64,000 bases of DNA from Chloranthus sessilifolius. Lineage: Eukaryota; Streptophyta; Magnoliopsida; Chloranthales; Chloranthaceae. Position 1 is the stretch's first letter. Each line of letters begins with the position of its first letter. The notes under the pieces are model-generated. The model was given only the letters and a program-made list of their open reading frames with translations. It made no database searches and had not been told where the DNA came from. This document shows, piece by piece, positions 1,376-64,000 of the stretch. Both the position numbers and the translations under genes were made by a program. Where the stretch lies: positions 12,468,866 to 12,532,865 of the forward strand of contig CM037587.1 of the NCBI GenBank assembly GCA_021018995.1, written 5' to 3'.

Positions 1376-1389
1376 CCCCAGCCAAGCTT

Positions 1390-4176: not shown

Positions 4177-4184
4177 TATAAATA
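4177..4184 (+). promoter_or_regulatory. LTR TATA box (E)
   Basis: TATAAATA in CCTATAAATAGAG. It is conserved at the same place in the F LTR (49482-49489), and is the likely start region for genomic RNA. Confidence 0.7.
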
Positions 4185-6370: not shown

Positions 6371-7325
6371 TGGCTTGTTGTTTAGCCTGATTGCTTTGAG
6401 CCCTCATGCGGGAGATGGGATGGAAGTCTTGGGAGAAAAGTCTCCTTGTTGGCCGCAAACTTGATTCGAAACGAAGGGTTGCCTTTCTTTTATAAGGTTT
6501 TCTGATTTTTCTAGATTTTGTATTTATGAATTTTTAGGGTTTTCTATCTTTTCTATTTTTAAAATTTTTGATAATAAATATGGTACATGGTCGATCGCTT
6601 TAAGGGGCGTCGGGAGTGTTGCATCCTCTAGCTGAGGGAGCGAGACGGCTGCTGGAGCCGTTCGGGGGATCCTTCGAGAAAAGTGGACTTGTTGTAAATT
6701 TCGCATTTTTTTTTAGAGTCTTCAGCTAATGAGACCCTTTGAATGAGTGATGCGGGTAATAGTGGCACCGATGTTCGGATTTCCTCTATCACGTTAATAG
6801 CCTTCCTCAAAGAAACTCTGGAGATCATAGTCGATCAAACTATCCACTTCTAAGTCATAATATGGTGGCTCTTCCTACCAAGGGGGATCTCTGGAGGGGT
6901 TTCCAGGGGCAGTGAGTTCTTTCCCTTGATCCTCATAATAAACTAGAATGAGCACGCAGGCTCGACAGCGAGGCTAATAACGGTGAGAGATGCAGCGAGA
7001 TCTCCAAGGGCATTCCCATCCTTCCAAGTTAGAGTCGGAGACGATATCAAGTTTGACATCTTGATCTGATAGTACTTGTAGTCCTAAGTTAGCTTGCTCG
7101 GCTAACTCGAGTGCAGGGAGATCTATCCAATAGTCTTCGACATCACTCGGGGGAGGTTGCCACTCTTCCTCGAGAGATTTCTAAAATATTTAGAGTTGTG
7201 GGGCATCTGGGGACGAAGAAGCATCTAATTCAAGTTCCTCTTCAAACTTTATGAGGGCAATATGAGTGTTTCCCCCTAGGTCAACCAAACGACTGTTGGG
7301 ATTTTCTATTCCTTGTGCTGGTAGC
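6371..7325 (-). pseudogene. pol linker between G-patch and RT, element A
   Basis: Degenerate polyprotein linker. It matches the B interval 32390-33290 on the opposite strand, including the acidic stretch around 7140-7290 (B 32390-32520), but stops prevent a long frame. No recognised domain. It is separated from its upstream part (15686 onward) by the D insertion. Confidence 0.6.
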
Positions 7326-17174: not shown

Positions 17175-19902
17175 CAGTCGGTGATGGTCAAGCGACTTTT
17201 GATGAGTTCTAGTATGGATATCTAGGCTAGAATCTTTTGGAGATGCCGCAACAGATCGTATTCTTACCTTGGCTCGAGTGTCGTTTCTTTGCCTAGCCGA
17301 TGAGCCTTAGGTGCAGGCGGTTGGAGGGTTTGAGGTGCTAAAATTGGCAGAGGGATGATGTGAGGTAGGGGTGGTACTTTAACCTCTCTTTCTCTCACAT
17401 TCTCCTCTGGTGGTTGTGCTTGTGTGAAATCCTTATTCTGAGGGAAAGGAGGAGGTGGTTAATTGGTTCCTAACTTGAGAATAGGGCATGTCGGTTGTTG
17501 GCCGAACCCTGCCGGACTCGACGTTGATGTATTCATGAAGCGAGTGAAATTGGAGGATGGAACATGTGCCTGCACGGCACCGTTACAAGGTGGGAGGTAC
17601 TATGTGAAATCCTTCTCCTCTAGGAAAGCAGAGACCAGTGTCTCACATGGGTCGAGGTGTTCTTCTCTCTCACTTCCTTCTATGCTTAGTAGACATTCAG
17701 TTTTGGTTTCACTTTCTCAGCTCGGAGTCTTTCGGGTCACACTTTCTACCCATGCGACAACTTGAGCTGTAGTTTGAAGAGCGTGATCTCCGTACTCAGG
17801 TTTAGAATTGGACGAAGGGAGTTGTAATGGTGCCGGTTCAGGATTTGGAGGGGTTGAAGGTTCTGGTGAGTGATGATGGAGGAATGGTCTCTTGGCCCCA
17901 AAAGAATGGACTCGTATTTGAGTGAATTTCGGGTATGGAGGGGGGCTCGGCGGGGTGATTTGAGTGATCAAGGCCGAGGGGTGTAGGGGTAAGGAAGCTC
18001 TCATGGGGGTGGCAAAAGTATTGGAGGGTTGGACGCGAGTAATTAAAGTAGAGGACTAGAAAGAGGGTTGATTGGGAGATCCACGGTAGTGACCTGGGCC
18101 GGCATCCCTTGGTTGTGGTTAGGCATAGAGTTATTTATGATCCCTAAATTTTATTGGGGTTGGCTATTATTAGGTTAGGATTCCTAAGCGCTTCCCAATC
18201 AATTTAATTTTGATCGTTCATGTTATAGATTACGTCCCTGAGGACTCAACAGTCTTCAAGGTTATGCCCCGCATATCGATGGAAAGCACAGTATTTACTA
18301 TAATCTAGATTTGCAGGTCATGGTTAGGGTTTTTTTGCGGGAATCATCGGAGATTTTGAGTGCTAAGGAGGTGGAGGATGATGGAAATCATATCAGGTAG
18401 AGAGGGATAGTGTTCCCGCCTCGACTGGTAGGGGCCTCTAGCTGGATTAAAGTTTTGCGGTGGGGGTACATTATTATAATTCGATGCGTGGGCTGGTCGG
18501 TTATATGTCACGTTTTGGTTTTGATAGGCATTAGGGTATTGGTTTATGTTTTGATATTGGCCTTGATTCTGATTCTGGCCTTGTTTTTGATTCGTGTATC
18601 TTTGTTGATTAGCACCTTGATTTTGGTTAGTATATCATTGTTGGTTTTGACTTTGCCCGAAGTTTCACGGTTGGAAGTTCCCGTTATTAGAATTTTGTCC
18701 TTGGTTGACAATGGTGTTAACTTGCTCAGCTCCTGAGGTTTTCTTATTATTTTTCAATTTTGATTCATTGGAAGAGCCTACTTTCGACGTGACTATGGAT
18801 AATGCGAGATCTTTGCCTTTAATGTTTTGTGCTAGTCGGGATGCCCGGGAGTGGAGTGTAGTGTAGTCGGGGCAATCGCTTATGACAAGTGCACTTTTTA
18901 GCGGCTCCCTAGTATTGTCAATAATAATGCCAATCGAGTCCTTTTCTTTCATTGAAGTACCGGTCCTAGCAACGAGTTTTCTCCACCTAGCGACAAAGTC
19001 GGTAAATCCCTTGCTTGGCCGCCATCAGATCTCTAAGGCTGATCGTTTCTTGGATCAAGTATTTGTACTAGTCTAGGAACTGACCGACCAGATCATCGAA
19101 AGTTTCTATCCTATAAAGCGGGGGTCTCGTGAACCAGTCTAAAGCTTCCCCTTCTAATGAGCGTTCGAAATAGTGAATGAGAAGTCCTTGGTTGTTGCGT
19201 ATGGGTTGACAATCATTACAAATGAGGGCCAAGTGATGGTTTGGATTTCCCGTGCCATTGTATTTGGTAAATTTTTTGGGGTTTAAACCCTAGGGGTAAG
19301 TTAAATTTAATGTCCCGACAAAATTTGTCAAATCTGAATGAGTGACTCGGGCACTCTCTCTTGGCCATGTACTCGTCGAGCATTTTTGGGAGATCTTTGA
19401 TCTTGATAGTATTGTCTTTCTGAGCAACCCGCGAGCCAACCTTATCTAGAGCGTCATTGTTAAATAATGTGTGAGCATGTTATCTCAACGATGTGGCACG
19501 AGCTGACACCGTGCTCGGGGTAGGAGGTGGCCTCTCTTATCGCTCTTGTTCTTTTGAAAATTGTCGTGACCTGATGGTTTCATATGCAGTGGCCAATCCT
19601 CGAAGTAATTCCTCGGAGTCATCGTCTTCCCTTTGTATTCTTTGAATGCTGAGCTCTACGATTTATTGAGCAGTAAGGTTTTCTCTAGTGCTATCCTCTC
19701 TTCCGTTATGACTATTACCGATGTGTGGGGTAGAGAAAGGATTTTCTTGTTCCCCAGCCATATTAACTTCAGATTGTCCTAGGGTGATATTATAAGGTGG
19801 TTCTTCCACGTATGTGGGGTTGCTATGATACCCCCACAAGGGTGGGTCTCCTAAACTTACTCTTTGTATACCAGACATTTCGAATCTTTGACGAAGACTC
19901 AT
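17175..19902 (-). pseudogene. gag region of element A
   Basis: Structural protein of the virus-like particle, in several frames. A start codon at 19902 opens MSLRQRFEMSGIQRVSLG. A Retrotrans_gag core lies at about 19155-19000, with ALDWFTRPPLYRIETFDDL and ETISLRDLMAAKQGIYRL. The C-terminal part (18952-18665) is open and rich in N, Q and K. A zinc-finger-like CAFHRYAGHNLEDC occurs at about 18300, like the Cys-His knuckle of Tat-type gags. The region 18000-17175 is Pro-rich linker leading to PR. Multiple stops and frameshifts make it non-functional. The part from 18122 down matches B from 29920 up. Confidence 0.8.
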
Positions 19903-29919: not shown

Positions 29920-31330
29920 GCCAACCACAACCAAGGAACACCAGCCCAGGTCACCACCGTGGATCTCCCCGGCCAATCCTCTTTCTAGCCCTCTGCCTTA
30001 ATCACTCGCCTCCAACCTTCCAACACTTTTGCCACCCCCGTGGGTGCTCCTGCACCCCTCAGCCTTGATCACCAGAATCGCCCCTCCGAGCCCACCTCTC
30101 TACCCAAAATTCACTCAGATACGAGTCCACTCCTTTAGGGCTTGAAGACCATTTCTCCATAGTCATCCACCAGAACCTTCAACCCCTCCAAATCTTGAAC
30201 CAACACTATGGCTGCTTCCTCGTCCGATTCAAAACCCGAGTATGAAGATCATGTTCTTTAAACTGCAGCCCAAATCGCCGCATGGGTAGACAGTGTCACC
30301 TGAAAGATACTATGCTAAGAAGACGAGACAAGGATTGAGTGTTTGCTAAACATAGAAGAGAGTGAACAAGAAGAATATCCCGACATGTGTGAGACACTGG
30401 TCCCTGCTTTCCTAGAAGAGGAAGATTACACACAATACCTCCCACCTTGGAGCGGCACAGTGTAAGTACGCCCTCCATCCTCGAATTTCACTCACTTCAT
30501 AGATACATCAACGTCGAGAAACACCTGGCTCAACCAACAATCGACTTGTCCGATCCTAAAGTAAGGAGCCAATTATCCACCTCTGCCTTTTCCTCGAAAT
30601 AAGGAGTCCACGAATGCACAACCACCAGAAGGGAACGTGAGAGGATAAGAAGTTAACTTGCCTCCCCCACCTCACATTATCCCTCCACCAATCCCCGCAC
30701 CTCAACCACTTCAACCATCCGTCCCTAAAGCTCATTGGCCAGGCAAAGAAATTACACTCGAGCGAGGACAAGAATATGACCTCTTGTGGCATCTCCAAAA
30801 AATTTTGACCTAGATATCAATACTAGAACTCATCAAGAAATTGCCTAACCATCACCGACTGCTGATAAGGATGGTTGAAGACACACAAGTGGATGAGGAC
30901 ACAACATTAGATGAGCTACATCAAATCGCCTCTATCATGGCACAACCTTCAGCACTCACTTTCACGAACATAGACATGCGTAAAGAGTCACTTTAGGACA
31001 GTTCAGCTCCCATGTACCTTACAGTCATAATTAGAGGATACTTTGTACCCCATGCGTTGCTCGATACAGGAGTAGGACTCAATATTTGTCCTATCACAAT
31101 GTTAAAGATGCTCGAGTACACAGAGTAGGATGTCAGGCCCTCAACACTTTCTCTTATAGCTTATGACTGCTCGCATCGTTTCATTGAAGGAACTATCAAA
31201 CTCTAGGTTCGCCTCATACCTATAATAAAAGATATCACTTTCCATATTTCTGATTCCTCCAGTACCTATAATCTTATCTTAGAAAGAGAATGGTTAGAGT
31301 CAATGAAGGCCGTCGCATCCAAATACCACC
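29920..31330 (+). pseudogene. gag C-terminus, linker and aspartic protease, element B
   Basis: Matches A 18122-16740 on the opposite strand. A Pro-rich gag tail and acidic linker (30200-30480, ESEQEEYPDMCETLVPAF) are followed by the protease at about 30840-31330. The catalytic motif is LLDTGVGLNICP, with V in place of the usual S/T after DTG. The downstream flap reads YNLILEREW, with E replacing the G of A. Stops after CL and in the V-R-L stretch make it inactive. In A the same motifs are still intact (DTGSG, LILGRKW), so the B copy is the more decayed protease. Confidence 0.8.
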
Positions 31331-33640
31331 AATGCGTCAAATTCCCATACAAGGAATCCATTGTCCGTATATATCCTAATGCACCCCTCCAGGAGATGGA
31401 CACTGATTACGCGGCGAGTATTCTAACAACTGATGATTCCGTGTTGAACAAGGGCCATATTTAGAAGACCTGAATCCCCAATGAGGCAAACATTGTAGAA
31501 GTCCATCCCCCTACCACTCCTAGTTCTCCCCCAATGCATCAACAAAAATTAATGAGGAGGGAGGTTGGCCCAAATCTCGACAAACTCTACGACATCAACC
31601 CAACCGTGGCAAAAGGTTGGAACCTTATGTATCAGCTCGGGTACATTCCCCACATTGGACTCGGTAAAAACAAGTAAGGTCGTGTAGGGCCTGTCGTCCC
31701 AAGGAAAATACGCAAACACATAGGGTTAGGTTACCAATCGGATGGCCCACAAGCCGACTTGTTTCCTACCCCACCAAAATGGTCTCTATATGATCACTTT
31801 GTCTAAGGGACCACTGAGAAAGTAGATATACCAAGGCAGAAGGAAGTGTCCTTCACTAAATCCTAAGAGGCAAAAATTGAATGAATGGCTAGGCATTCAA
31901 TGATTTAATGAATCTAGATGACGATGTCGACAAACCACTTGAGGGATTCAGGCCATTATTCGATACTGAGGAATCCCTAAAAGAAGAGCCTCCCGAACCT
32001 GGGCCACACATTAAAGACTGGGATTCGATCGATGACGAGAACTTCCATATCGCAACCCTAGAAGATGAAGAGCAGTGAGAATCAACAAAGGATGACTGGC
32101 TCTCGATGTCAAGCAAAGAAGAAGACTATTGGAGAAACCTCATCAACATAGAACTAGAAGACCTCCTAAGGGCAGAACATCTAAAATTGCTTGAAGAAGC
32201 TAATCCCTCCCAAAACACCAATCTGGATTCTGACGGTAAATTTGATTATCGACCTATACTCCATCACTAGCAGTGCCCTCGCCAGTGACCTTATCCAAAA
32301 ATGCTATACTGTAACTTATGCGAGTCTATCTTGATATGGTGCGAAAGGGCTCTCTTACAAGATATTTGGCAAACCACCAGCGTGGATAATGATCGCATCG
32401 CTCTTATTGAGTTTGAGGAAGAACTAGAACTAGATACTCCTCCATCCCCAGACACGCTACAACTCCAAATACTTTGGAAATCTCTCGAGGAAGAGTAGCA
32501 ACCCCCTCCAAGCGATGACGATGACTACTGGATAGACCTCCCTGCACTCGAGTTAGCAGAATAGGCCAACCAAGGACTTCATGCATTGTCAGATCAAGAA
32601 GACGAGTTTGATACCAGCCCTGACTCCAGCTCAGAAGGATGGGAATGCCTTTGGGAATCTCCCTGCATTTGTTACCATTACTAGCCTCGCTGTTAAACAT
32701 GCATATTCATCCTAACATACTATGAAGTTCGAGGGAGAGAGTTCACTACCCCTGAGGATCCCCAAGGAGGTCACCCTCAATAGGGAGAGTAGTGGCGTTA
32801 TAACTCAGAAGATGATAGTTCGACCGATTACAATCTCCAGAGCTTCTTCGAAGACGAGATGATCAATATGATAGAGGAAATCTGAACGTCAGTGTCGCTG
32901 TCACCAGCGTCACTTATTCAAAAGATCCCATCAGATGGGACTCTAAAAAAAAAAGCCAAATTTAGAATGAGTCTACATTTCTCGAAGAATTGCCCGAACG
33001 GCTTCGGTAGCTGTCTCGCTCCTTCAGTTAGAGGAAGCAACTCTCCCGGTGCCTCTTGAGGCGACAAACTTTGTACCATATCTACTATCAAAAATCAAAA
33101 AAATAGAAAAAGCAGAAAACCCTAAAAATTTAGAAATATAAAATCCAAAAAAACTAAAAAAATTAGAGAAGAAAGGGAATCCTTTGTCCCAAATCAATTT
33201 TACAACCAACAAGGAGACTTTTCTCCTAAGATTTCTATCCCCTCTCCCGCACGAAGACGCAAGGCATCCAGGCAAAACAATAAGCCAGTGATCAAACCAG
33301 ATGAGATACTTCATGACTTTGAGAAAAGGATCAATGACCTTGACCTTCACCTTACCAAAGATCTCTCAGTCATAAATTGTGCCGATGAAGGGTCACCTTT
33401 CATAAATCAAATCCCCAGTATGGCAATTTTACAGTGTACGAGCTTCCCGAGGATGAAGAAGGAACACCAATCACCGAGGAGGTGCAAGACTTCCAACGGG
33501 TCATCAAGCCTTCCGACGAGCAAACCCAAGCTACCACGAAACCTACAAAAGAAGTTGACTTTGGCACTGAAGAGAAATCCAAGAAGCTACTAATTAGCGC
33601 AACACTCAATTCCAAGGAACGTCAACAAATTGTATAAGTC
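31331..33640 (+). pseudogene. G-patch module and pol linker, element B
   Basis: G-patch-like region at 31610-31740: KGWNLMYQLGYIPHIGLGKN, then a stop, then KIRKHIGLGY, followed by KWSLYDHFV. G-patches are Gly-rich RNA/helicase-binding modules found in a subset of plant gypsy polyproteins between PR and RT. After it comes an acidic linker that is not open in one frame (31860-33180). The RT approach segment (DEILHDFEKRINDLDLHLTK, 33297-33356; then YELPEDEEGTP, 33437) is partly open. Confidence 0.7.
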
Positions 33641-35090
33641 CTGCAAGAACACCTCGACTCCTTTGCATGGTCTTATGAAGATATGCCTGGTCTAGACCCA
33701 AGTTTAGTAGAACACTGTCTTGTCTTGGAACCCGATGCAATACCTGTTAAGCAGAAACTCCGAAGGATGCACCCACAAATAGCCCTTCAAGTTAAAAAAG
33801 AAGTTGACAAGTTACACAAAGCCAAATTCATCCGAGTCATCCTCTACCCCAAATGGGTCGCCAATATAGTACCTATCGTTAAGAAAGACGGAAGAGTACG
33901 AGTTTGCGTTGACTTTAGAAACCTTAACCAGGCATGCCCAAAAGATGACTTCCCACTTTCACACATTGACACTCTAGTCGACAACACTGCTGGACATGAG
34001 ATGCTCTCCTTTATGGACGATTTCTCTGGGTATAATCAGACCAAATTAGCAGAGTCTGACAAAGAGAAGACTTCTTTCACCACACTATGGGGAACATATT
34101 GCTATGTCGTCATTCCTTTCAGGCTCAAGAACGTAGGAGCCACGTATCAACGCACCATGATGGCTATTTTTCATGACATGATATATAAATGTGTAGAAGT
34201 CTACGTTGATGATATATTAGTGAAGTCCCAAATGTGAGCAAGACATGTTGAAGCACTCCGACTAGTGCTACAAAGAGCTGAGAAGTATCAACTAAAAATG
34301 AACCCAAAGAAATGTGTCTTCGGAGTCACCTCCGAAAAATTACTTGGTTTCATAGTTAGCAAGTGAGGAATCGAAGTCGACCCTGCAAAAGTCAGAGCCA
34401 TCCTTGAGATTCCACCTCCCAGTAATATCAAAGAATTATTAGGCTTGATAGGAAGATTACAATTCATCAGAAGATTCATCTCCTAGCATTCAGATAGACG
34501 TGATCGTTTCAACAGACTACTTAAAGGAGGAACTGACTACAAATGGGATGACCAATGTCAGCAAGCTTTATACAACATCAAGAAGTACCTCCTTAACCTG
34601 CCAATACTATCGCCACCAGTTCTTGAAAGACCTCTAATCCTCTACCTCTCAACGAACAACAAAGCAATGGGAGTAATTATGAGATAATATGAACAAGATG
34701 GCAAGAGAGAGAGAAGGCTATCTACTACCTTAGTAGGGCGATGGTCGAGTATGAACGAAAATAAACTTCAATGGAGAAGACTTGCCTCACATTAGTGTGG
34801 GCCTTAATAAAATTACAGCATTACTTTGGAGCGCATAAGATACTAGTACTAGCCCAAATGGACCCTCTAAAGTATATATTTAAAAAGCCCGCAATATCAG
34901 GAAAGATCCTCGCTGGCATATGCTATTACAAGAATTCGGCATCACTTACGTCATGTAGAAGTCGATCAAAGGATAAGCAATTGCCGATTACCTCGCAGAT
35001 CTCCCACTCTCGAGTAATGAGCCCATACATGAAGATTTCCCTGATGAAGAGCTACTCACAATTCATAACGAAGAGCCTGATAAGACGTCA
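33641..35090 (+). pseudogene. reverse transcriptase and RNase H, element B
   Basis: RT palm and fingers are open from 33683 to 34237. Motifs: EHCLVLEPDAIPVKQKLRRM, WVANIVPIVKKDGRVRVCVD, FRNLNQACPKDDFPL, catalytic D in SFMDDFSGYNQ and catalytic YVDDILVKS (34205-34230). A stop follows directly (SQM then TGA). Thumb and connection read NPKKCVFGVTSEKLLGFIVS, IEVDPAKVRAILEIPPP and IKELLGLIGRLQFIRRFIS. RNase H traces: ERPLILYLSTNNKAMGVIM (34628 on) and CLTLVWALIKLQHYFGAHK (34780 on). Several stops, so not functional. Confidence 0.88.
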
Positions 35091-35500: not shown

Positions 35501-36933
35501 TTCATCGAAAAGCTGACAATACCCGCCTACAAGGTAGCATGGACCGTTAAGAGAGAATTACCAGTCCTCCCCATGAGCACAGGACCAAATGAAGCAACGC
35601 TTCAAAAAATCACGTCAAGGCAGGGACTGCAGTCGCTACGTTTAGGTTTGAAAAATCACCAATCATTGATGGACAGCCATGGTATTTCGACATTTGTAAC
35701 TTCTTGAAGCATCAACATGTTCCTCCATATGCTACGAAGATCGAACAGAAGACTATAAGGAACCGATGATGAGTCTCTGTCTACTGATTCTGCATACTCG
35801 GTGAAATACTATACAAAGAGGCCTTCGCTAAAGGAGTACTGCTACGATGCATCACAACCACTGAAGGATAATACATTATCCAAGAAGTACACACCAGTAG
35901 ACAGAGACTCATCGACCAAATCATACGACAAGGCTACTTCTGGCCGACGATGATAAGAGACTGTCACCTCTACGTCGAAAACTACAAACAATGCCAAGAA
36001 CACGCCGCACTTATCAAAGCTCCATCAGTTGCATTGAACACTATGACCTCATCATGACCATTTTTGATGTGGGCCTTCGATATCGTCGGACCTTTAACAA
36101 ACACAATTGAGAACACTCACAAGCGTGCGTTTATACTTATGGCAATCGAATACTACACCAAATGGACAGAAGCTGAATCCTACGTCAAAATCACCGCTTC
36201 AACACTCGTGAGGTTTATCATTCAGAATATCATCACTAGGTTTGGAATACCCAGGATGTTTGTCACCAACAACGGACCATAGTTCATCGCAGAGAAGACG
36301 AAGAAGTTACGCAAGAAGTTCGGCATCGATCTATTCCACTCATCACCATTCTATCCTTGAAATGGACAAGCAGAAGCTACAAACAAAACACTGATTTGAA
36401 TTCTAAAATGCATAGTAGAGAGGAAAAATAGAGCCAACTGGCGCGAATGACTACCAGAAGCACTCTGAGCCTATAGGACCTCTATTCGTATGGCCACTAG
36501 CCAAACTCTCTACTTCCTTACCTATGGGATGGAGGCAGTCCTATCATATGAGATACAAGTACCATCCTCACAGATTCAACTTGATGATGAGAAATCCTTG
36601 GACGTGAGGAAAATTGCCCTACTCGCGCAGCTAGAGCAACTCGATGAAATACGACTAAGGGCAACTGATCACGCTCAGATATATCAGAGGAGAGTGGCTA
36701 GGGCTTATGATAAGAAAGTCCTCCAACAAAGCTTTAATATTGGAGAACTGGTTTTAAAGAAAATCATGCCTTCCAAGCACACCCATCCAAAAGAAAAATT
36801 GAAACCGAACTGGGAAGGCCCTTATGTTATAACAGCCGCATACCCTGAGAATGCATACAAACTGGCAAACCAAGGCAGGGAAGAACTCCCTAGCCCTTGG
36901 AACGCCATGTACCTTAGAAAATATTACCCTTAG
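35501..36933 (+). pseudogene. integrase, element B
   Basis: Inserts element DNA into the chromosome. The N-terminal zinc-binding region is at 35830-36010 (VHTSRQRLIDQIIRQGYFW, ...YKQCQEHAALIKAPS). The catalytic core has the first D in FDIVGPLTN (36071), the second catalytic position changed from D to N (FVTNNGP, 36262-36282) followed by a stop where Q is expected, and E in NGQAEATNK (36361). The open C-terminal part (36490-36933) contains QVPSSQIQLDDE, QLDEIRLRATDHAQ, NIGELVLKK, KLKPNWEGPYVI and ends NAMYLRKYYP then TAG, the usual end of gypsy integrases. Confidence 0.88.
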
Positions 36934-41136: not shown

Positions 41137-42601
41137 TAGAGACCCAGCTCGCGCTTCAAAGCGCTAATCTCAGCATGAAGGTCATCTTCCCGGACATTCC
41201 GTTCAGTCAGCCAACGACCATGCAAGCTCTTAAACCTCTTCCGAGAAGAATCAGCGGCTCTACAAGCGACACTCAGTGACCCCTTCAAACGGAGGACCTC
41301 ACTCTCTGCTGTTTCTGCTCTAATCTTTTCATGTGCTGAAAGTTCATGCAAGATCCTCTTCTCGTCCACCAGTAATGCGATGCAGGCTCAGAGTGTCGTC
41401 TCTTTCGTTAACCAAGGGCCCCCAGTGTTACTAATCTCTGACAAATCTGGACCATCGGCAGCAGGCCGCTCAGTCAACAGCCAGGCCTCGTACTCAGGAG
41501 AAGTCCTAACCGAGTCTCCGTGCTCAATATCACACATCAGCGTTGACTGAGGCGTCTCCCAAAGAGCAGCAATCCGATCTATGTCCCCAGAGGACCCCCT
41601 AGAAAAGATCAAATCACATAAAGGGGGTCTGGCCTCATAAGGCACCTGCTGAGTGCAGTCGAACTAACGCAACACCCAAGGAGGGTGATGCCCTGGTGAT
41701 CTCTACTACGAATTATCGGGAAGGTCCGGTCCAGCCAAGGAAGTCTCCATGTCAGCTCGATATCGATCAACCAAAGTTTCAGAGCTGACATATCGCCCTG
41801 GGGGAGCAAGTGGCATCTACCCAAAAAACATTGGACCACCTCACCTCGGGAAATATAAAAATGGGGCACGGGCACCAAAATAGCAAAATGCTCACCCAAC
41901 CAGACCTGAAGCAACAAGGGGCATCCCTGAAGGCTCTCCACCTTACCCAAAGCAAAGGAATCAAGGCATCAGTACAGCTCAGCAAGCACTAAATGCATCA
42001 TGGACCGGCCCACCTCCAGCTCCGCCAAAATATCACAAACTTCCAATGAGAAGCTCTCTCCCCCGGTGAAGAAAAGAATTTCGGAAATGAGACCGAGTGC
42101 CAAAGCTTTCACGTTAAAAACATTCCTAACCGGCAATTTTCGGAGGCTTTTGTCACCAAAAAGTTCTTTGAGGAATTTTAGCAAACGCCTTGTGGACCCC
42201 CCAATGAGACTTTTCTCATACTCGGATTTCTTCAAACTGAGAGTACGGTGAACGGATTTGGAATAGCCCGGCCGAGGCGTGACTCTTGCAAGGCCCCTGT
42301 GAAGCTTCAGGCCAGAGAGATTAGATAGCTCCTCAAGAGTTGGGGTTAGCTCTTGCTTCCCAAAATGAAATATGTGGAAGTTCACATCCCAAAATGAAGC
42401 GACAGCATGAAGAAGTTTCCACCGGAGGGGAACCTCTAGGAAGGAAGGAAGGCGAGATAGCCCAAGGCGCTCTAAGTCGGTGAGCTCACTCCCATTCAAG
42501 CTCCCAAACCAGGCCGTTAAAAATTTGGGCCCCAAGCCCATCAAGGGGGGCAAATTGGCTCCGGGCCCTCCGCGTAAGGGAGGGCTGGAAAGAGGGTGCA
42601 T
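41137..42601 (-). pseudogene. antisense DUF7745-like gene, intronless
   Basis: One nearly continuous minus-strand frame of about 490 codons with the first ATG at 42601 (a non-ATG open stretch extends to 42700). The N-terminal globular part reads LHAVASFWDVNFHIFHFGKQ, then ELTPTLEELSNLSGLKL, then CPLLLQVWLGEHFAILVP: the pattern of DUF7745, a domain common in plant retroelement-linked proteins and reminiscent of PMD. The C-terminal coiled coil (41369-41137) reads ILHELSAHEKIRAETAESEV and ends LKRELGL then a stop. Breaks: TGA at 41971 (LAELY-CLD), a frame change near 41640, and TGA near 41387. A palindrome cluster and a TATATACAT stretch lie just upstream (42723-42896), so it may have had its own promoter. 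Confidence 0.72.
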
Positions 42602-42745
42602 GAACGTACAGGGATCTTTTAAGAGGATAAAAATCGATGTATGATGATGGACCCGCCTTGAGAAAAAGCAAGGGTAAAAAGAACCAGTCAAAGAGACCAA
42701 GTCAAAACAAAAAGAGCTAATGTATATATGGAGTTAAACTCGAAT

Positions 42746-42896
42746 CTATTAGTTGCGCTGCATTTCAAATTGTCTTGCCTGGCACAACTATTAGTTGCGC
42801 CAGCACAAATTGGCCCTTTCTTTTGCCTGGCGCAACTATTAGTTGCGCTAGCACAAATTAGCCAAGGTCTGACCTGGCACAACTATTAGTTGCGCC
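42746..42896. repeat. palindrome cluster upstream of the DUF7745-like gene
   Basis: Three clear 21-bp dyads at 42781-42801, 42829-42849 and 42876-42896, plus a partial one at 42746-42759. The best copy pairs GGCGCAACTA with TAGTTGCGCT; the others have a CpG changed to CA in the left arm. Starts are spaced 48 and 47 bp, as in E. They lie 145-295 bp upstream of the ATG. Confidence 0.88.
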
Positions 42897-43273
42897 ACAC
42901 TCCGAGCTCCCCCTCTCCAGCCATTTTAGGACCTAACTAGGGGACTTACACCCCTTCTTGTTTGTTTCACACACCCTGTTCATTTAACAACTGGGCATTT
43001 GTTTTGTTTATTCATGTCCAGGACTAGTCCTACATCAAGGCATGCAACCCAAGGGTCACTTTCCAAGAACATTTTGGGCCAACACATCCTGTAGAGAAAC
43101 AGATCCAATACCAAGAAAATCGAGGCATAAAATCAAAGCAGAACTATCTTCCAAAAAATGATAAAAATAAAATTTTGTTTTCAAAGTACCACATCAACCA
43201 TCCTCCAAATTGTTTAAACAGATCCAAATCAAAAAGTACTGAGTTTTTCAAAAAAAGGAAGGAAACTAAAAGC
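42897..43273. other. intergenic stretch between antisense genes
   Basis: Region between the 3' end of the antisense PMD gene and the palindromes of the DUF7745-like gene. I see no coding sequence or strong motif. Confidence 0.4.
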
Positions 43274-45740
43274 CTATTCCTGGCTGGCGCCCTTTGACTT
43301 CTTGCGACGACGAGAAGAACTCTAAAAAGTTTGCATGTCCTCCACCCTAGACCACGCTTGCGAGATCCTGCTGAGCAAGGAGCGCGATTCCTTAGCATGA
43401 GCACACTGCGAAGCACAAACCAAAGTCAGAAGTCAGGGTCAGTTAAAGGGCACATGATGATAAAAGGAATAAAGAGGAATATAACAGCAAGGCACTCACC
43501 GTCTCAACCTCCCTAAGCTCCGCCAAGTGACGATGGTATGACGCATACTCCATGGCCGAGCTGAAGTCTTATATTCAGAACAATGCAACATCAAAGGTCA
43601 GGACAACCCTGAAAGCGTGTGCAGAAAGAAACCGAAATGAAAGGAGATTGGGCCATCAAAGGACTTACCCCTGGGACCACCTCAGGAGGGGGAACGCGAG
43701 CCGCTTCGACAGAGAGTCGTGCCTGCTGATCCACATTAGCGCAGAGGCTCGAAAGGAAGCTATCATCAAGGCATTAGAAGGTCCCATAGACTAGGGAGGG
43801 GTCACCAGTAGGGATACCAGCGTGAGAAGTCCCCGACGGACTAGCACCCGGCGAGCCCTCACCCGAGAGACCCGCACCAGATAGACCAACTCCAGAGGGA
43901 TCCACCCCTAACGTATCAGCCGCACTGGGTTTACCTTCACCATCCGAATCATCCCCTGGGGCGAACTGTGAACAAAATAAAGATCCACTTAGAGGGGAGC
44001 AAAAGCAAAAAAAAAAAGGAGAAAAGGAGCTAATCCAAGCCAAGACAAATTACCTAACCCAGCGGGCTGCCAAATGTCAGAAAATTGGCGCTGGAAATAA
44101 AGCACAGCAAGATGAACCGATGGGGCAGGCACTCATACCAAAGGTGATAGTCCCCGGGCATGTGAAGGGCATGAATAGGGAGCCCATTATTGAAGAAGGC
44201 CGTTGTGAGCTCCTCGATACTGCCAACAGGATACCAGACATCCGCTGGAGGGTCCACGGGTATGGAATAATAGCCCTGAAACTGATGCACCACTCGCTCT
44301 CCCAAATAATAAAATTTGGCCCACGCTCCGTAGAAGAACACAACGCGGCGATTATTGAATAAGCGGGAGGCACCTACAGCTGCCCGGTCCCAGAAGGGGG
44401 ATGCAAGGTACGGATCAGGGAGGATCTGCTCAAATCAAAAAAGGAGAGAAACCAAGCAACCAACATCTCAGTCAAAGAAAATTTCTAAGCTAAAAATGAA
44501 CAAAGGTTGAGAAAAGAGAGGAGAGTTGTTACCTGCTCGGGGACCATCAAATCATGTTGGGACCGTAGGCCCATTTCCAGATGCTTTAGGCCCACGTCAC
44601 GGCGTCGAGCCTGATGCCAGTTGCTGAACAGGGGATAGGTGAGCGCCTCCGAGAAAAGGAGCGGGCGCCCGGGGTGGAAGTAGTGGTATCCCCATACCTA
44701 AAGAGACAAGCACATAAGAGCAGGTCAATAGCACATACAGGTCATGCAAAAAATGTATATATGATGTGGATGAGGGCAAAGAGATGCGAAATTACCTCCA
44801 AGGCGGCCCAAAAACCCACAGCAGACTTCGAATCCCCGATCGTAACCCGAGATAAATTATACATCAGCCACGCATACCCTGCTCCTCCCCTATCATGCCT
44901 AGGGACGTCACCCCAATTGTCCATCATGCTCAATAGGGCCAAGCTAACTTGGCCCCTGCTAGCATTTGTGAAAAGGGTCTTGCCCAGCAGGAGTAGGAAC
45001 GTGATGCGAGCTAAGACGATCGCCCTCTCTGGTGTGATGTAGAGCACCCTATCTGGCTGACCTAAGTCCACCAACTCATCAGCAGAAAAAAGGGAGGTCA
45101 GCCAGGACATCTTGACCTCTGTGCCATGGGTCTGCCTGTGAGGAGGATAGGCCCCAATCAGTCGAATAATGTCCTCCCAGCTCGGTACCGAGAGATCGGA
45201 TATCGGGATCCCCCCAATCCTAATACCGGTAATCATGGCCCAATCGACTGGCGTCAACGTCATCTCGGCGTACGGCATGTGGAATGTCATGGTCTCAGGG
45301 CGAAACCTCTCAATCAGGGCCTTCAAATAGGCAGCATTGGCCCTCATGGTGGGACAAGACAGGAACTCCCCAAAGCCCACCTACTCCAACAAGACCTTCA
45401 CTACGGGGGGGCGTAGAGGTAGAACTCATGAAAGTCAAACCACCCCCGTGAAACACAATATTGGGCAAGTCCTGCACCCAAAGGAAATGCACATCAGGTC
45501 AAAGAGGCAAAAAGAGAGAATGCATAACGGAAATAAATTGAACCTTTCGTCTACCTTGCCCGCTATCCCAAAGTTAGAAATATGAGTGTGTTGTTGGTGA
45601 AGGAGGCCGACCCAGGCGGCCTCACCTTGCATCTCGAGCCATGGGCCCGCTCTCCATTCCACCCAGACAAACTCCTCCCCCCGCGGGCCACGAACAATCT
45701 CGGGTCCCTCCTCAGGAATGTGCTCATCACCGCCTGACAT
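43274..45740 (-). pseudogene. antisense plant mobile domain (PMD) gene, seven exons
   Basis: Multi-exon gene opposite to the retrotransposon sense. Exons inferred from GT-AG sites: 45740-45555 (MSGGDEHIPEEGPEIVRG..., donor AAG/GTAGAC), 45471-44796, 44697-44533 (HPGRPLLFSEALTYPL), 44425-44054 (FYGAWAKFYYLGERVVHQFQ), 43975-43669 (Gly/Ser-rich), 43570-43500 and 43405-43274 (ends in a basic SSSRRKKSKGASQE). Exon 2 holds the PMD core: RFRPETMTFHMPYAEMTLTP, DWAMITGIRIGG, SWLTSLFSADELVDLGQPDR. The joined length would be about 635 residues. Damage: one-base frame problem and a stop in the first 100 bases of exon 2, TAA near 43775, TAG at 43324. The basic tail could be a nuclear signal. PMD proteins of the MAIN/MAIL group are nuclear and act in silencing and genome stability; the role of TE-borne copies is not established. 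Confidence 0.85.
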
Positions 45741-46438
45741 ACTAGGGCAACAAGGCAATCACAGCTGGTCAAGTACAAAGATACAGGTACAACTTTGTTC
45801 TTTCAAAAACAACAAAAAGAAACCCCTTTACTTTGCTTTGTTCTTTCAAAAAAAAAAACAACAAAAAACAACAACTACAAGAAACCCCTTTACTTTGCTT
45901 CGATCTTTCAAAAACAAAAAAAAACAACAAAAACAAAACAAAACAAAATCTTTTACTTTGTTTAAACAAAAAAGGGGAGGAAGAAACAAGAAAAGAAAAA
46001 AAAAAAACCCTATATGTTTCAAAACAAAAAAAATCCCTTTCTTCTATGCTCCTAAAAAATTCAAAAACCAAAAAAAAAAAGAGAAGCCTTTCATTTATAA
46101 AACCAAATAAAAAATCCTTACTATTAGAAAAGAAAAAAAACAACCACAAAAATAATAAAAAATGTCATTGTTGTTTTTCCCAAACAAATAAAATCTCTTA
46201 ATTTTAAGAGAAGTCAAAAATCATTTCCTTAATTTTCAAAAAAAAAAAGAGACCGAAAATCCCTTCTTCTTTCTAATTTAGTGTTCAAAAAAAAAAGAGG
46301 AAAAAAAAAAAAACCAAAAATCCAATATATGCAAAACAAAAATACAAAAAAAGAATAGAAAAGAAAAAAATATATAACAAAAATAAAGTCCATTCTATAT
46401 ACACAAATAAAAATAAACAAAAATAATAATAATAATAA

Positions 46439-46469
<31 letters not shown>

Positions 46470-46860
46470 TTAGGCACCAACAAATTCCACAAAATAACAA
46501 AAATAGGGCACCATTCATGAAAAATTGCCAACATATCATCAATAAACAAGCATACAATGAAGATAAACCATTATTCATCAAAGAATGCAAGATCATAGCA
46601 ATATTTATAAGAAAAAGCAAGAGAAATCAAAGGAAGTAAGTCTTAATGGTTACCTTTTGAGAGAAGATGGATCTCTGATATAGCGTAAGCCGACACTTGA
46701 TCCACGCAAGCAGGACAACGGCAATGAGGTACGCAAAGAGGCGATGAAAGAAAACCCTAGGAAGAGGCAGTTTTCAATTTCAAAGGAGGAGGGGGAGAAA
46801 AATTTGAAACAAAGCCCCCCCAGCCCGAACTCGGGCTGTTTAAATTCCCCTAGCCAAGCC
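45741..46860 (-). other. 5' leader of antisense PMD gene: UTR exon and T-rich intron
   Basis: No coding signal. A leader exon (about 46800-46652) contains AGGGTTTTC (telo-box-like) and ends TCAAAAG/GTAACC, the same donor as in E. The intron to 45741 is dominated on the plus strand by A-rich repeats, including three imperfect 50-70 bp units with CCTTTACTTTGCTT and TCTTTCAAAAA (45790-45960) and an AT/AC run at 46439-46470. It ends in TTGCCCTAG, an acceptor one base before the ATG. Confidence 0.6.
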
Positions 46861-46861
46861 T

Positions 46862-46978
46862 GGCGCAACTAATAGTTGCGCCAGGCAAAATTCTGCCCTC
46901 CTTTTGCTTGGCGCAACTATTATTTCCGCCAGGCTATTTTGAGGCTTCCAGTGGCCTGGCGCAACTAATAGTTACACC
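46862..46978. repeat. palindrome cluster upstream of antisense PMD gene (F)
   Basis: Copies at 46862-46882 (perfect arms GGCGCAACTA and TAGTTGCGCC), 46910-46930 and 46958-46978. Spacing is exactly 48 bp between starts. The cluster is immediately upstream of the inferred transcript start, the same arrangement as 1390-1506 in E. Confidence 0.9.
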
Positions 46979-48619
46979 AGGTACTTAGGCTGGGTCTTAG
47001 ACTTGGCACGGGCCAGATAGGAGGGCCGGTTTCCCACTTCCTCCTTATTTGTTTGATTTATCACCCCTGGCAGATGCACACGCTCCCAGAATGGCGTTTC
47101 AATCATCCATCGACTTGCCGAGGAAGCAGTGCTAAAATAAAGGTGGACCGAGGTCGATGAGCACCTCGGTCCTACACCGGAAACATAAAAAGTCCAAAAA
47201 AGAGAATCCCCGAAGAGAAGCCAAAATCTCAAAAAAAAAAAATCACATAAAATAATAGCTTCAAAATTCTAAAAAATCATCACATAAAATAGTTTGAAAA
47301 AAATCTAAAAAACAGGTAGGAAACAGATCTGTATCCCCCACAGAGACGCACAAGCATAAGGTGGTAAAATGTCAATATTTTATCCACAGTACAACTGTGC
47401 CATACTAAAGTCCTGAGTCGAAGGTCCACCTCAGATTTTTGGATCCTGCTTTAAGAAAGGAGCAATGGTGTCAGTCCCTGTCAAACAATCAATGTCTTGA
47501 TCAGGTCGACTCCACTGCTAAATTTTAGCATTTAGCACTTTGTTTTGGATGCATATGAACTTTAGTGTCGTAAAGCTTCAGATTCTCCGTTGGAAAAGGT
47601 CAACCGTTGGTTGAGACCAACCTGTTGAGAATGAGATTACATATCAATCTAACTATGTGCAACCATGCATTCAGAAGGGTTCATTTCCCTTTTATTTTCT
47701 GCAGGCTTAAAACCTGTATGGGTAGCGGTATCCCTATAAAGTGTACGCCATGCATCTGGGTATCCGTATGATGGTCGTTTGTCCCCGTAAATTATACCCG
47801 GGCGGGTCCGGGTTGGGGCTTCCATAGCCTTTGTTGTTGCTTATTGCCCCTGATGGGTGCATGACTATGCATAGATAATTGATGTTTATGACCATTATCG
47901 GCGGAAGCTAGGATTGGATGCCCCTTTTGGGAGGTGCCCAATGTTTGGCTAGATTTATTCAAGGAAATCGAAACTGGATACTCTAGGTCATGCTGAGCTG
48001 AGGCATGCTTTCAGAAAAATGGCACATACTCTCAAAAAGCGTTGTGACATCTATTCACTTCACTCGGGTGGTCATGCTAAATAAACTTTGGGATCGATGG
48101 GTTCGCCCAAAGATCTCGATCCCTGCTTTCAGCAGGGGCACCCGCGAATAATCCAATGAGGTTATCAAATGCCTTGTAGGATTGGATGCAAACTGTGGAG
48201 CCTTGTGTATGTTTACTTCGCGCCTATCTTAGAATGTGGGTCGATCACCCCTCTTACTTATGAAGCTGTCGCATTCAGAATGAAGCTCGAACATCAATCA
48301 CCTTCAAATCATCTCGAGAAGCGGATGTTTTTCTCGACTAACGGGCTTTCGCAACTCGAGAGGCAAACATTTTTCCCAGCTATTGGGCTTTCACAACTCA
48401 TTCCACCTCGGTTATGCCCAGTAATATCGCTAAGCGCTTGGGAAGCGATTACCTTGAGAAACGAATGATTAGCTTGACACCCCAAGGCTTTCGTTTTCTC
48501 ACCGTGTTACTCACCCGATGTTTGAAATTCATTCTGAATATAGTGGACCCGTCAGCAATGCCTTGGGCCTTTTCGAATGTCTCTTTTTTTTGGCATACGA
48601 TCACTAGTGATCGGATACC
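46979..48619 (+). other. non-coding 3' internal region of F
   Basis: Aligns with 1507-3228 of E. No supported coding sequence; frames such as 48169-48704 differ between the two copies and look fortuitous. Confidence 0.6.
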
Positions 48620-48632
48620 AAAGAGGGGCATC
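48620..48632 (+). promoter_or_regulatory. polypurine tract of F
   Basis: AAAGAGGGGCATC before TGTAGACACC; identical to E. Confidence 0.8.
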
Positions 48633-49013
48633 TGTAGACACCCAAATTTGGCCCAAGGCCCGATCGAAACACATTTTAAGAGAGGCACATTTTTGAATTT
48701 TTGATGGCATGTATGGACCTTAGGAATCACCCCAAAACCTTAAGAATCACCCTAGATCCCTTAGAAACCTATCCCGACCCTTAGAACCTATTTCGAACCC
48801 TAAACCTAACCTTACCAGGCTATAGACGAAGAGTGGTGCACCGAAACTGGCTACGGCCCTCTACTATGATCGAGTCTCATACCATTGAGAAGTAGAGATC
48901 ATCGGCTTTCCAACGGTCCAAGGTTCGCCCCAATCGAAGGTATACATCAAAAGATATGGCAAATAGAGCCCGGAGGGCATAAATGTAAAGTCATGTGGGC
49001 CCCTTAGGGACTT

Positions 49014-49207
49014 GGCGCAATTAATAGTTGCTCCAGTAATAAATTTTGCCTAGCGCAACTAATAGTTGTGCCAGGGCAATTTTCCCTCATTTTAAGCCTG
49101 GCGTAACTAATAGTTGCCCCAGAATTAAAAGTGGGCCCCATCCTCGCGAGCTGACTTCCAGGCACTATTTTACTGTACATTTGTTTAGCGGAACTATTAG
49201 TTGCGCC
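49014..49207. repeat. palindrome cluster in U3 of the F LTR
   Basis: Four copies, at 49014-49034, 49052-49072, 49100-49120 and 49187-49207, of the GGCGCAACTA/TAGTTGCGCC dyad. They are 275-470 bp upstream of the TATA box and in register with the E LTR cluster. Confidence 0.88.
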
Positions 49208-49481
49208 AGGCATATGAACAGTAACTGTTGGTTTTTACCCCAAAATTCATGATTGGGGTTTGACTTGCTGACCACCTCAACCTTTGGGGTTTGTTTAGCT
49301 AGTTCTGTTGCACCCTTTTGAAGCCTATTTGGAGTGGCTTAAGGCCTCTCCCCATCATCCACCATTAGAGGACCTTCCCACACATTTCAAGTCTCCAAAA
49401 ACCCTAGGAAACCTTAGATTGCCCCTTACCTAATTGCTAATCCAATTAGGACTTTAACCCCTCACTAATCTTCCCTTCCTC

Positions 49482-49489
49482 TATAAATA
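49482..49489 (+). promoter_or_regulatory. LTR TATA box (F)
   Basis: TATAAATA in CTCTATAAATAGAGAG; same position as in E. Confidence 0.7.
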
Positions 49490-50213
49490 GAGAGCCACCC
49501 CTCTTGCTTAAGGGTTGAGAATTTCTACCTAAGAGAGAAAGAGCTTAAAGTGAGAAGATCTTTCTCCCTTTGGTGCACACCCCCCATACAAATTCCAAAA
49601 TTCATAAAACCCCTTTAGACCTTAGCATTTCATAGAAAACCCTTAGGTTAGGTGTGTGTGATCCCCTAGCCTCCCTTCCCTACCTCTTAGCTTCAAGCCT
49701 TAAGAGTTAGAACCCCACTTTCCACTATACAAAGCCTTCAAGAGCTCATCAAAGTAAGCCGAACGCAAGGCTCTCCTACGGTGCTACAAGGGCCCGAGGG
49801 CTTCTGCTCTCCCCTTTCTTCTCATCTCTTTCTAGCTCCCTCCATCCTCCCATTTGTGCCATTACGTCGCCGACTTTTCGGTAGGAACAGAGGGGCACAA
49901 ATAGGATTCTAAGGCCTTTTGGGCAAGAGAAAGCTATTTTCTTTTCTTTCACATTATTTTATTTTTGGCCATTAGTAGAGACCGCGTTAAGGAAGTTGAT
50001 CGGGTGCCTAACACCTTCCCGATCGATAACCGAAGCCCCTACCCAAGAGCCTTTGGTGTGGACCGGATTTAGAGTCATATTTTTAGCACTTCGGTGCTCA
50101 TAAAAATGAACTAGGTTTCCCGGGACATCGAAAGCTCTGGGTGGCGACTCTATATTTTTTCGTTAGAGAGCGCATCGTCGCGACGGGATCGTCCCGATTC
50201 CCACGGTTGCACA

Positions 50214-61140: not shown

Positions 61141-61469
61141 AGTATCCATTATGCCCACCAACTTTGTTTCACTTTTTCCAAGGGGGTTCCTTTTTATTAT
61201 TATCAGGTGTTGATGTAATTATGGTTTTCACTATAGATTTTTCTCTCATCTCTCCGATAAATTCTCTATTATCATCTTGTTTTATGGACGTTTGATCTGC
61301 TAGCATCTTAGAGATCCACATCATTTCATCGATAAAAATAACGAAAGGCGTCTGCTCCTCATCATCTATATTAGCAATTCCCCCCTCATCTTCTTTCGAG
61401 GACGTATGCATCGAATGATCACCCTTATTGCCTTCAAATGATTCACGAGGCAATTCGCTCTCATCTTTT

Positions 61470-61790
61470 ACAAATGTTTCTTCACACTTCCTCTCCCCAT
61501 CATATACTACGACTCGTTCTATCAGTATGAGGGTCAATAGTGATCGACTCTAATTTCATGAACATACGTGTATTTTGACTAGCCTTATTTCATTTACAAG
61601 TATCTCGAGGGACATGTACTTTTTCCTTGCCTCTCATTTTCTACAAATGTTTCTTCACAGTTCCTCTCCCCATCATCTATTATCTTAGAAGTACGACTCG
61701 TTCCATCAGTATGAGGGTCAATAGTGATCGACTCTAATTTCATGAACATATGTGCATTTTGACTAGCCTTATTTCATTTACAAGTATCCC
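61470..61790 (-). repeat. 173-bp tandem duplication
   Basis: Copies start at 61470 and 61643 (ACAAATGTTTCTTCACACTT and its near copy); both contain TATGAGGGTCAATAGTGATC. It lies inside the exon-like region and duplicates coding sequence. Confidence 0.85.
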
Positions 61791-61970
61791 GAGGGACATC
61801 TACTTTTCCCTTGCCTTTCACGTCGCTATCCCGAGGGACTTACATTTTTTCCTTGCCTTTCACGTCACTATCCCGAGAGACTTGCACCTTTTTCTTATAT
61901 TTCATATCACTATCTCAAAGGACTTGCACTTTTTCCTTGCCTTTTACTTCACTATCCCTCAGTGGGTATG
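61790..61970 (-). repeat. about 45-bp repeats encoding a short peptide unit
   Basis: Four to five units of about 45 bp with TATCCCGAGGGACTTGCA and CCTTGCCTTTCACGTCAC; on the minus strand each encodes a variant of VPRDSDVKGKEKV. Confidence 0.8.
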
Positions 61971-62723: not shown

Positions 62724-63180
62724 CTATATAATTCTGTTAAAGTACTCAATATTATAGACTAATCTCATGTACGTCTCTTTGATTGTCTTAGAGCTATTCA
62801 GTATCATGAATGTTGCAAGAATATGCAATAAGGTGAGATGAATAAAATTGACTCTCTCTTTCTCTATACTAGCAATAGTTATTGCCTTTTCTATTTCACC
62901 AACACTAATACTCCCTACCTGACCAAAATATTTGATACAAAATAAATTAATGTCTTTATTTTCAACATTCAGACCTTCTCTCAGAGTTTCAGAGATAATT
63001 CTAACATGCTTAAGACCAAGTAAAGCAAACATTTCTAGCAAGGAAAAATCAACAGTACGTCCGCCAATGGAGAATCTCTCAAACTCATAATCAAAATTTT
63101 CTACTAATATGTATATCAGCTCATTGATTGTAGGAATATCTATTAGACGAAGAAGAGGCTCACTGTAGTTGAACTAAGCA
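62724..63180 (-). pseudogene. N-terminal domain exon of a Ulp1/PMD-type transposon protein
   Basis: Minus strand. An open frame from about 63130 reads ELIYILVENFDYEFERFSIG, GGRTVDFSLLEMFALLGLKH (the ATG of the annotated open frame is at 63041), then CIKYFGQVGSISVGEIEKAI, NFIHLTLLHILATFMILNSS, ending near 62724. The pattern of a beta segment followed by a helix-rich LLHILATFMI core resembles DUF1985 or PMD-like N-terminal domains of plant transposon proteins that end in a Ulp1 domain; this is by eye. Same strand as, and upstream of, the Ulp1 exons at 57-58 kb. Confidence 0.5.
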
Positions 63181-63689: not shown

Positions 63690-64000
63690 AAGGTTAATCT
63701 GAATCTATAAAGAACTGATGTGAGAACATTAAAGGACTAATATTAGACAATAATGTACTGATGTGAGATAGTGCAGGACTGATATCAGACTCATTTTCAG
63801 CATTAAACTATATTCTGATCTGTATGAGTAATCTGAATCTATAAAGTACTGATGTGAGAATATTAAAAGACTAATATCAAATAATAAAGTACTGATGTGA
63901 GACAGTACAAGACTGATATCAGACTCCTTATGACTCATTAAACTACATTCTGACCTTCATGAGTAGCCTGAATCTATATAGTATTGATGTGAGAACATTA
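63690..64000 (+). repeat. 139-bp tandem array, right
   Basis: Units begin near 63690, 63829 and 63968 with CTGAATCTATAAAGTACTGA followed by TGTGAGA; period 139. Each unit has an internal sub-repeat of the ACTGATGTGAGA motif. It runs off the window. The period is close to that of the left array (142 bp), and both contain GATGTGAGAC or CATGTGAGAC and a GACTCNTTATGA-like segment. Confidence 0.85.

Follow-up and report, generated by a model that had tools for sequence, protein, structure and literature searches.

A palindromic site arrayed at the long terminal repeat and antisense promoters of an Ogre-type retrotransposon in Chloranthus sessilifolius

Introduction

The antisense genes of giant plant retrotransposons have long been known, without a known job. 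Here, we focus on a stretch of 64,000 nucleotides of Chloranthus sessilifolius DNA (GenBank assembly GCA_021018995.1, contig CM037587.1, positions 12,468,866 to 12,532,865 of the forward strand), termed the window, which holds two related Ty3-type retrotransposons, F and E, that align at 68–75%. Small arrays of one palindromic site, the dyad, stand in the long terminal repeat (LTR) of F and at the promoters of its two antisense genes, and copies elsewhere in the genome that have a 5′ end carry a further array ahead of gag. A DNA site common to the LTR and the antisense promoters is a concrete candidate target for the antisense genes, and the dyad is an exact handle for locating these elements and designing reporters. 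Loci and contigs elsewhere in the genome are given L and C numbers, respectively.

Architecture of the elements and their antisense genes

Element E occupies positions 1–4908 and is cut by the start of the window. In F, pol on the + strand ends near 36930 with the integrase C-terminal region (36469–36930), which gives weak, below-cut-off matches to integrase C-terminal families. The 3′ LTR of F, TGTAGACACC...GTTGCACA, lies at 48632–50213 (+ strand), and the approximately 11.7 kb between pol and LTR encodes two antisense genes, one for a PMD protein and one for a DUF7745/PMD-like protein. The LTR was delimited by alignment to 17 LTRs, and a 5-bp target-site duplication (TTAGT) around one two-LTR copy supports its boundary.

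F belongs, with its relatives, to the Ogre/Tat type of Ty3 retrotransposons. TG...CA LTRs, a target-site duplication and giant size occur together in one two-LTR copy, and the PMD-type extra frame, placed in 57% of Ogre elements by one account (PMC6317226), is present, here antisense and between pol and the 3′ LTR. Loci L020, L021 and L022 are pieces of an apparent single minus-strand element of about 25 kb on contig C1 (approximately 2.7 kb between the pieces unread), which has the 5-bp TTAGT at both ends and LTRs that are 91.4% alike, the 5′ LTR starting with TA through one change. The sequence TGGCGACTCTGCTGGGGA, a candidate for the primer site that in Ogre elements is complementary to tRNA-Arg, follows the LTR in L009, L017 and L019 and occurs with at least one change in L005, L010 and L013; it was not found in L022. 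A search of the genome with the F LTR gave 40 matches, including the window's own. LTR pieces 96–98% identical to the F LTR lie at C5:66233337, C15:24225440, C11:30279025 and other places, and some matches form same-strand pairs 13–28 kb apart (e.g. C15:24210745/24225440 and C12:12842911/12857813), which suggests close copies of the F subfamily.

The antisense PMD gene (− strand) has a 5′ leader exon closed by a putative splice donor, AAAAG/GTAACC, at 46653–46654; AAG/GTAACC is found in E too. After a putative intron, the protein would start at an ATG at 45740 (45438–45740), where the ratio of non-synonymous to synonymous substitution rates (dN/dS) is 0.15–0.40 in four comparisons. The PMD exon at 44745–45380 matches PF10536 with an E-value of 8.2e-17 (61.8 bits against a cut-off of 34.9), and its dN/dS is 0.07 against E, where dS is saturated, and 0.12, 0.22, 0.31 and 0.35 against four other copies. 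Purifying selection acts on the PMD protein; decay after insertion pushes pairwise dN/dS up. A basic C-terminal tail, SSRRRKKSKG (43274–43320), is nuclear-localisation-like by its motif and suggests a nuclear protein; the tail is the same in F and L021 and has substitutions in L016 and L024. Among 291 candidate homologues of the PMD exon in a protein collection, none reached an E-value of 0.001.

The DUF7745/PMD-like open frame (− strand) spans 41972–42733, with coding sequence from the ATG at 42601 (41972–42601). It matches PF24924 with an E-value of 5.4e-6 (26.1 bits against a cut-off of 26), while its match to PF10536 (E-value 9e-4) falls below the cut-off. A LexA-like Pfam match in a downstream frame (E-value 0.02) is likewise below the cut-off.

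The dyad and its arrays in the window

The dyad has the form GGCGCAACTA-W-TAGTTGCGCC, where W is A or T, with the core AACTA-W-TAGTT. The window contains 16 matches with up to three mismatches, all inside E or F, and 100 dinucleotide shuffles contain none. Ten of the matches are in F and comprise every full copy named in a preliminary description of the window, which had reported near-perfect dyad clusters in U3 and at the two antisense promoters. At the DUF7745-like promoter, a motif scan places the array at 42739–42896, with dyads starting at 42781, 42829 and 42876 and a decayed partial copy at 42739 that has five mismatches and lies 42 bp from its neighbour. The array at the PMD promoter (46862–46978) has dyads starting at 46862, 46910 and 46958. 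The U3 array (49014–49207) has four, starting at 49014, 49052, 49100 and 49187, each with two mismatches and spaced by 38, 48 and 87 bp. In E, three dyads (1390, 1438 and 1486; array 1390–1506) lie at the orthologous antisense PMD promoter, identified from the E–F alignment, and the U3 array (3635–3892) has five copies with up to six mismatches, three of which (3635, 3729 and 3872) have up to three. The 47–48-bp spacing described for the antisense arrays is borne out. The palindrome, given earlier as 21 bp, is a real dyad, but the conserved stretch is wider and reaches approximately 25–27 bp, (C)TGG...CCA(G).

The arrays stand upstream of TATA-like boxes. In the F LTR, a TATAAATA box at 49482–49489 (+ strand) starts 275 bp past the end of the last dyad. 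Across 19 LTRs, TATAAATA begins 275–286 bp past the last dyad in 15, and at 370 and 417 bp in L018 and L019; no box of this type was found downstream of the dyads in the other two (L008 and L012). The TATA-like box of the antisense PMD gene, AATTTAAA, lies at 46839–46846 (− strand), 15 bases downstream of the array. Five of the six PMD copies shown have AATTTAAA or ATTTAAA, and E has AATTTAA; the box is 7–18 bases from the nearest dyad in five of the six and more distant in L014, which has a decayed copy in between. The antisense DUF7745-like gene has a TATATA box at 42723–42728 (− strand), just downstream of its array; three of the four copies shown have TATATAC and L021 has CATATAC, 10–29 bases from the nearest copy of the motif.

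Genome-wide specificity

The 2.17-Gb genome contains 9,336 exact dyads. The reversed-pattern control has none, the everted arrangement of the same half-sites is absent genome-wide, and removal of the centre base leaves only 11 exact sites. No exact dyad was found in a prokaryotic genome collection or in a viral contig collection. The centre length is fixed: in 339 kb of sequence, 8-base half-sites with up to one mismatch each are separated by one base 124 times, by two bases once, and never by zero or by three to six bases.

The surroundings of exact sites were read in 20 stretches, all on contig C1, around the first 31 of 50 exact sites listed. All 20 stretches align to F, and every one of the 31 sites lies in an F-like element. 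The exact dyad is thus private to F-like elements among the sites checked, with a minority elsewhere possible among the 9,336. The genome search against controls proposed in the preliminary description therefore speaks against the outcome it had named as damaging, that the dyad is equally frequent in unrelated sequence.

Four places in copies across the genome

Within these elements the 31 exact sites fall into four places: 21 in U3, four in the leader before gag, three at the antisense PMD promoter, three at the antisense DUF7745 promoter and none elsewhere. The gag leader is a fourth class of array, found in copies that have their 5′ end; because F is without this end in the window, the class was out of reach of the preliminary description. 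The leader dyads begin approximately 810–980 bp past the 5′ LTR, ahead of a proline-rich frame and a gag-like frame (L009; gag-like as judged by eye). The element of about 25 kb on C1 holds all four classes. A short tandem duplication with an offset of about 70 bp also lies in the leader of L005 (1931–2103, past the 5′ LTR), and similar secondary matches occur in L009, L017, L019 and L022.

In the loci read, arrays are confined to the four places, while the number of dyads per array (1–5) and the U3 spacing differ between copies. Successive dyads are mostly 46–48 bp apart in the antisense and leader arrays, and U3 gaps are 35–38, 47–48 or 87–130 bp. Six of the 30 arrays in these loci have no listed exact site, so were not chosen by one, and still hold 2–4 copies. 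All 19 LTRs examined have 1–5 dyads with up to six mismatches, the best copy having 0–2 (chance expectation, 0.04 per LTR), and the DUF7745-like promoter array is present in all four regions examined, three of them from motif-chosen loci.

A second sample was chosen by protein rather than by motif. A search with the F PMD exon gave 11,935 candidates and scored the best 150 (82–100% identical), of which about every seventh was taken, giving 20 PMD copies, and 451 bp at the expected promoter place was read. At least one dyad (up to six mismatches) is present in 16 of the 20, compared with 0.004 per copy in shuffles. For the four without a dyad, the adjacent 450 bp gave arrays of four and three in two (L052/L064 and L063/L067), bringing the totals to at least one dyad in 18 copies and at least two in 15, with a best copy of no more than three mismatches in each.

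Conservation and origin of the arrays

Conservation in U3 was assessed in an alignment of 19 LTRs, comprising 17 from motif-chosen loci, with exact copies masked, and the two in the window (mean identity 0.78, range 0.70–0.94). Identity is 0.957 in the core AACTA/TAGTT, 0.734 in the CpG-bearing ends, 0.673 in spacers and 60-bp flanks, and 0.793 elsewhere in the LTR. The core mask was shifted circularly 1,616 times, and no shift matches the core identity; the exceptional part is the core, sited in the most variable part of the LTR. The ends vary mainly by C-to-T and G-to-A changes, the pattern expected where CpG is methylated. In the protein-chosen sample, the mean frequency of the commonest letter over 34 motif copies is 0.90 in the arms, 0.97 in the core and 0.56 in the flanks, values that lean upward since the scan retains only matches with up to six mismatches. 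The earlier statement that the dyad copies are far more alike than the DNA between them thus holds for the core, which changes much more slowly than the spacers.

The core is also nearly the same in all four classes, with an identity of 0.87–0.97 between classes when only non-exact copies are compared. Spacers are 0.55–0.66 alike between classes (0.52–0.54 when shuffled) and 0.68–0.73 within a class; leader spacers are near chance against U3 and PMD (0.55) and reach 0.61 against DUF7745. The view that the sense and antisense promoters share no other obvious sequence was too strong, since their aligned spacers are 59–66% alike compared with 53–54% when shuffled. This residual similarity indicates that the U3, PMD and DUF7745 arrays descend from one old 48-bp ancestor. 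They are not recent duplications of one segment, an outcome that the preliminary description had also named as damaging, because their places are kept even between copies with LTRs no more than 70–94% alike.

A candidate binding site for a dimeric protein

The arrays are probably binding sites for one dimeric protein that would act at every transcription unit of this Ogre-type element. A symmetric, conserved site of fixed geometry, arrayed at the LTR and the antisense promoters, fits the need of a dimeric DNA-binding protein; since the core hardly differs between the four classes, the simplest reading has a single protein serving every site. Small arrays of one palindromic site are present at the gag leader, in the LTR and at both antisense genes, and a DNA-binding protein that docks as a symmetric dimer on this fixed 21–27-bp site could act at all arrays at once, whether by activating from upstream or by countering silencing. 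Our preferred next step, which falls somewhat short of being likely, is that the binder is one of the two antisense products; the privacy of the dyad to the element and the constraint on PMD favour the element's own protein. Through such a regulator the element would recognise itself, and the protein would feed back on the gene that encodes it. In its full form the proposal is more tentative: the antisense PMD or DUF7745-like protein might bind the arrays in all four places, and so open or protect the whole element while driving expression of the protein itself in a feedback loop.

Several observations weigh against this proposal. Two of the 20 protein-chosen PMD copies lack a dyad in the sequence read: L057 has lost the promoter segment, with F 46628 joined to 48046, and L058 has none in the 900 bp read and aligns to F only in low-complexity sequence. 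A general PMD profile gave 128 genome matches, and in all 12 copies picked from the upper part of the list the 3 kb upstream is free of dyad arrays (L037 has one isolated match with six mismatches), so PMD as such does not imply the dyad and a generic rule linking the two is rejected. The whole 21-bp motif, including its CpG-bearing ends, is unexceptional within the LTR, as its identity is reached in 262 of the 1,616 shifts; the low transversion rate of the core is reached in 19. The idea that one motif marks every promoter stands for the LTR promoter region and both antisense promoters, but no obvious TATA-like box follows the gag-leader array, which may thus be an enhancer or some other thing rather than a promoter. 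Constraint on the DUF7745-like frames is weaker, with dN/dS of 0.32–0.70 (0.32–0.52 for 41972–42601). The antisense proteins have no DNA-binding domain above the Pfam cut-off and no relatives in the PDB at a meaningful E-value. Another LTR family (L029/L043, described below) has a near-dyad cluster of its own, and host factors may read arrays of this kind in LTRs generally. This cluster and the missing DNA-binding domain counsel caution over the element's own protein as the binder.

Alternative explanations

The arrays could instead be read by a dimeric host transcription factor whose site the element has multiplied at each promoter. LTRs commonly use host factors, and such a factor fits the same data as a self-encoded one. 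Two observations favour it: the different near-palindromic cluster of the L029/L043 family, probably in its LTR, and the failure of Pfam to recognise a DNA-binding domain in the antisense products. We nevertheless regard a host factor as rather unlikely, for the exact dyad is seen only in F-like elements at all 31 sites checked, and four PMD loci found with the general profile, three of them full-length, stop-free and host-like, are all without it. No plant factor that binds such a 21-bp site is known to us, although no comparison with a motif database was made.

A role of the motif as a hairpin, in RNA or DNA, for packaging, processing or small-RNA production is improbable. The expected full-length sense RNA would contain the arrays internally or at its end, and folding of the 27-mer gives −21.4 kcal/mol (z −8), with z of −6.5 to −7.9 for the three F arrays. 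Against this, the bases of the would-be loop are conserved as much as the stem, the letters themselves, beyond their pairing, are kept across copies only 70–80% alike, and the antisense arrays adjoin TATA-like boxes, where promoters need upstream sites. Compensatory pairing, rejected as an argument for the hairpin, was sought at 820 stem-pair positions in non-exact copies, of which 171 have changed, 163 on one side and 8 on both, with 6 compensatory; these counts are weak evidence, as most copies are probably dead. A neutral origin, by which a functionless 48-bp tandem-repeat unit would have spread within the element while conversion kept its copies alike, is highly improbable. Residual spacer similarity among the U3, PMD and DUF7745 arrays and the variable copy numbers would suit it, but conversion would homogenise the spacers too, yet conservation is lowest in these and highest in the core, and places relative to the TATA-like boxes are largely kept.

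Relation to known systems

VANC proteins have the domain DUF1985. No VANC-type protein was found among the scanned frames of F, which match PMD and DUF7745; the only DUF1985-like frame among those scanned in the window is an open frame at 62727–63173 (− strand), outside F, with a weak, below-cut-off match (E-value 3.5e-4). Tandem repeats surround this frame (61458–61958 and 63695–64000), with no dyad near.

In Arabidopsis, VANC proteins are element-encoded proteins that act on motif arrays of VANDAL (Mutator) elements, with experimental evidence of binding and demethylation (PMC5735166, PMC10398659). As far as those reports describe, VANDAL elements resemble F in having short, family-private motif arrays in non-coding regions, as tandem repeats that gain and lose copies; F-like elements also carry family-private arrays in non-coding parts. 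VANDAL elements differ in being DNA transposons with 8–9-bp motifs, in one orientation for VANC21 (PMC5735166, PMC10398659), whereas F is a retrotransposon with a 21–27-bp palindrome at sense and antisense promoters, known here from sequence alone. The half-site TAGTTGCGCC and the VANC6 motif AGTTGTCC/AGTTGTAC have only AGTTG in common, which is too short to mean anything alone; the VANC6 motif was rejected as the same site, and its seven matches in the window make no dense array.

Among retrotransposons, antisense PMD frames have been described in Ogre elements (PMC6317226), and Retand carries antisense TRP28 frames, for whose protein a regulatory DNA-binding role has been proposed (PMC11963269). 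A common promoter motif is not described in the Ogre and Retand accounts consulted, whereas F has one cis motif at the LTR and the antisense promoters, and two antisense genes. In maize, gene23 of Grande, like the antisense genes of F, is an accessory gene that lies in antisense ahead of the 3′ LTR, has a promoter of its own and encodes a nuclear product; the sections of that report covered here mention no motif common to the gene23 promoter and the LTR (PMC7264820). PMD proteins of Arabidopsis, in MAIN/MAIL1-PP7L, are tied to promoter motifs and the silencing of mobile elements, and in the portions of these papers covered direct binding of a motif is not shown there either (PMC7156037, PMC9899485). 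The DOWN motif of Arabidopsis PMD mutants was considered as the same site and rejected, being different in sequence, and the MORC1 DOWN motif CATGCAGTTT is not the dyad as far as that source gives it (PMC9899485). A motif common to the LTR and antisense promoters of a retrotransposon has no description in the portion of the open-licence literature covered, outside which most subscription papers lie. If the element's own protein binds the arrays, retrotransposons, like DNA transposons, would carry self-recognising control systems; such a regulator would be a retrotransposon counterpart of VANC, independently reached, and would explain the persistence of antisense frames in Tat elements.

Other elements with motif clusters

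A different motif, GAGTACCTTTAAATCCACC, occurs in both orientations upstream of PMD in 10 of the 12 copies chosen with the general profile, with at least four matches in eight and one or two in two more. One of these, L034/L042 (C1:45912289-45921681), is a PMD-carrying, MULE-like DNA transposon as judged from its frames by eye, without a search. It has 35-bp terminal inverted repeats containing GAGTACCTTTATTTCCACCCAC, its two ends carry GAGTACCTTTATTTCCACC, a variant of GAGTACCTTTAAATCCACC, in inverted orientation to each other, and four internal copies of a close GAGTACCTTTAAATCCACC variant lie in both orientations approximately 1.0–1.46 kb upstream of the PMD domain. L030, L033, L035, L036, L038 and L039 are grouped with it for the GAGTACCTTTAAATCCACC-type observation. 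In two unrelated kinds of element, then, the motif upstream of PMD resembles the terminal motif of the element, a parallel that is only suggestive, as a transposase could read its own ends.

The LTR family of L029 and L043 has a cluster of the near-palindrome AATTCGAYCATCGATTT before gag (L029:993-1116) and one copy after pol (L043:4984), probably in both LTRs; a gag-like frame runs from L029:2556 and pol extends to about L043:4400. In the window itself, 4909–7261 and 15928–18120 are inverted and 77–80% alike to the F-side pol DNA at 32397–34752 and 29923–32095, respectively. The fragment at 4909–7261 begins right where the LTR of E ends, and both fragments read as nested or rearranged Ogre-like pieces.

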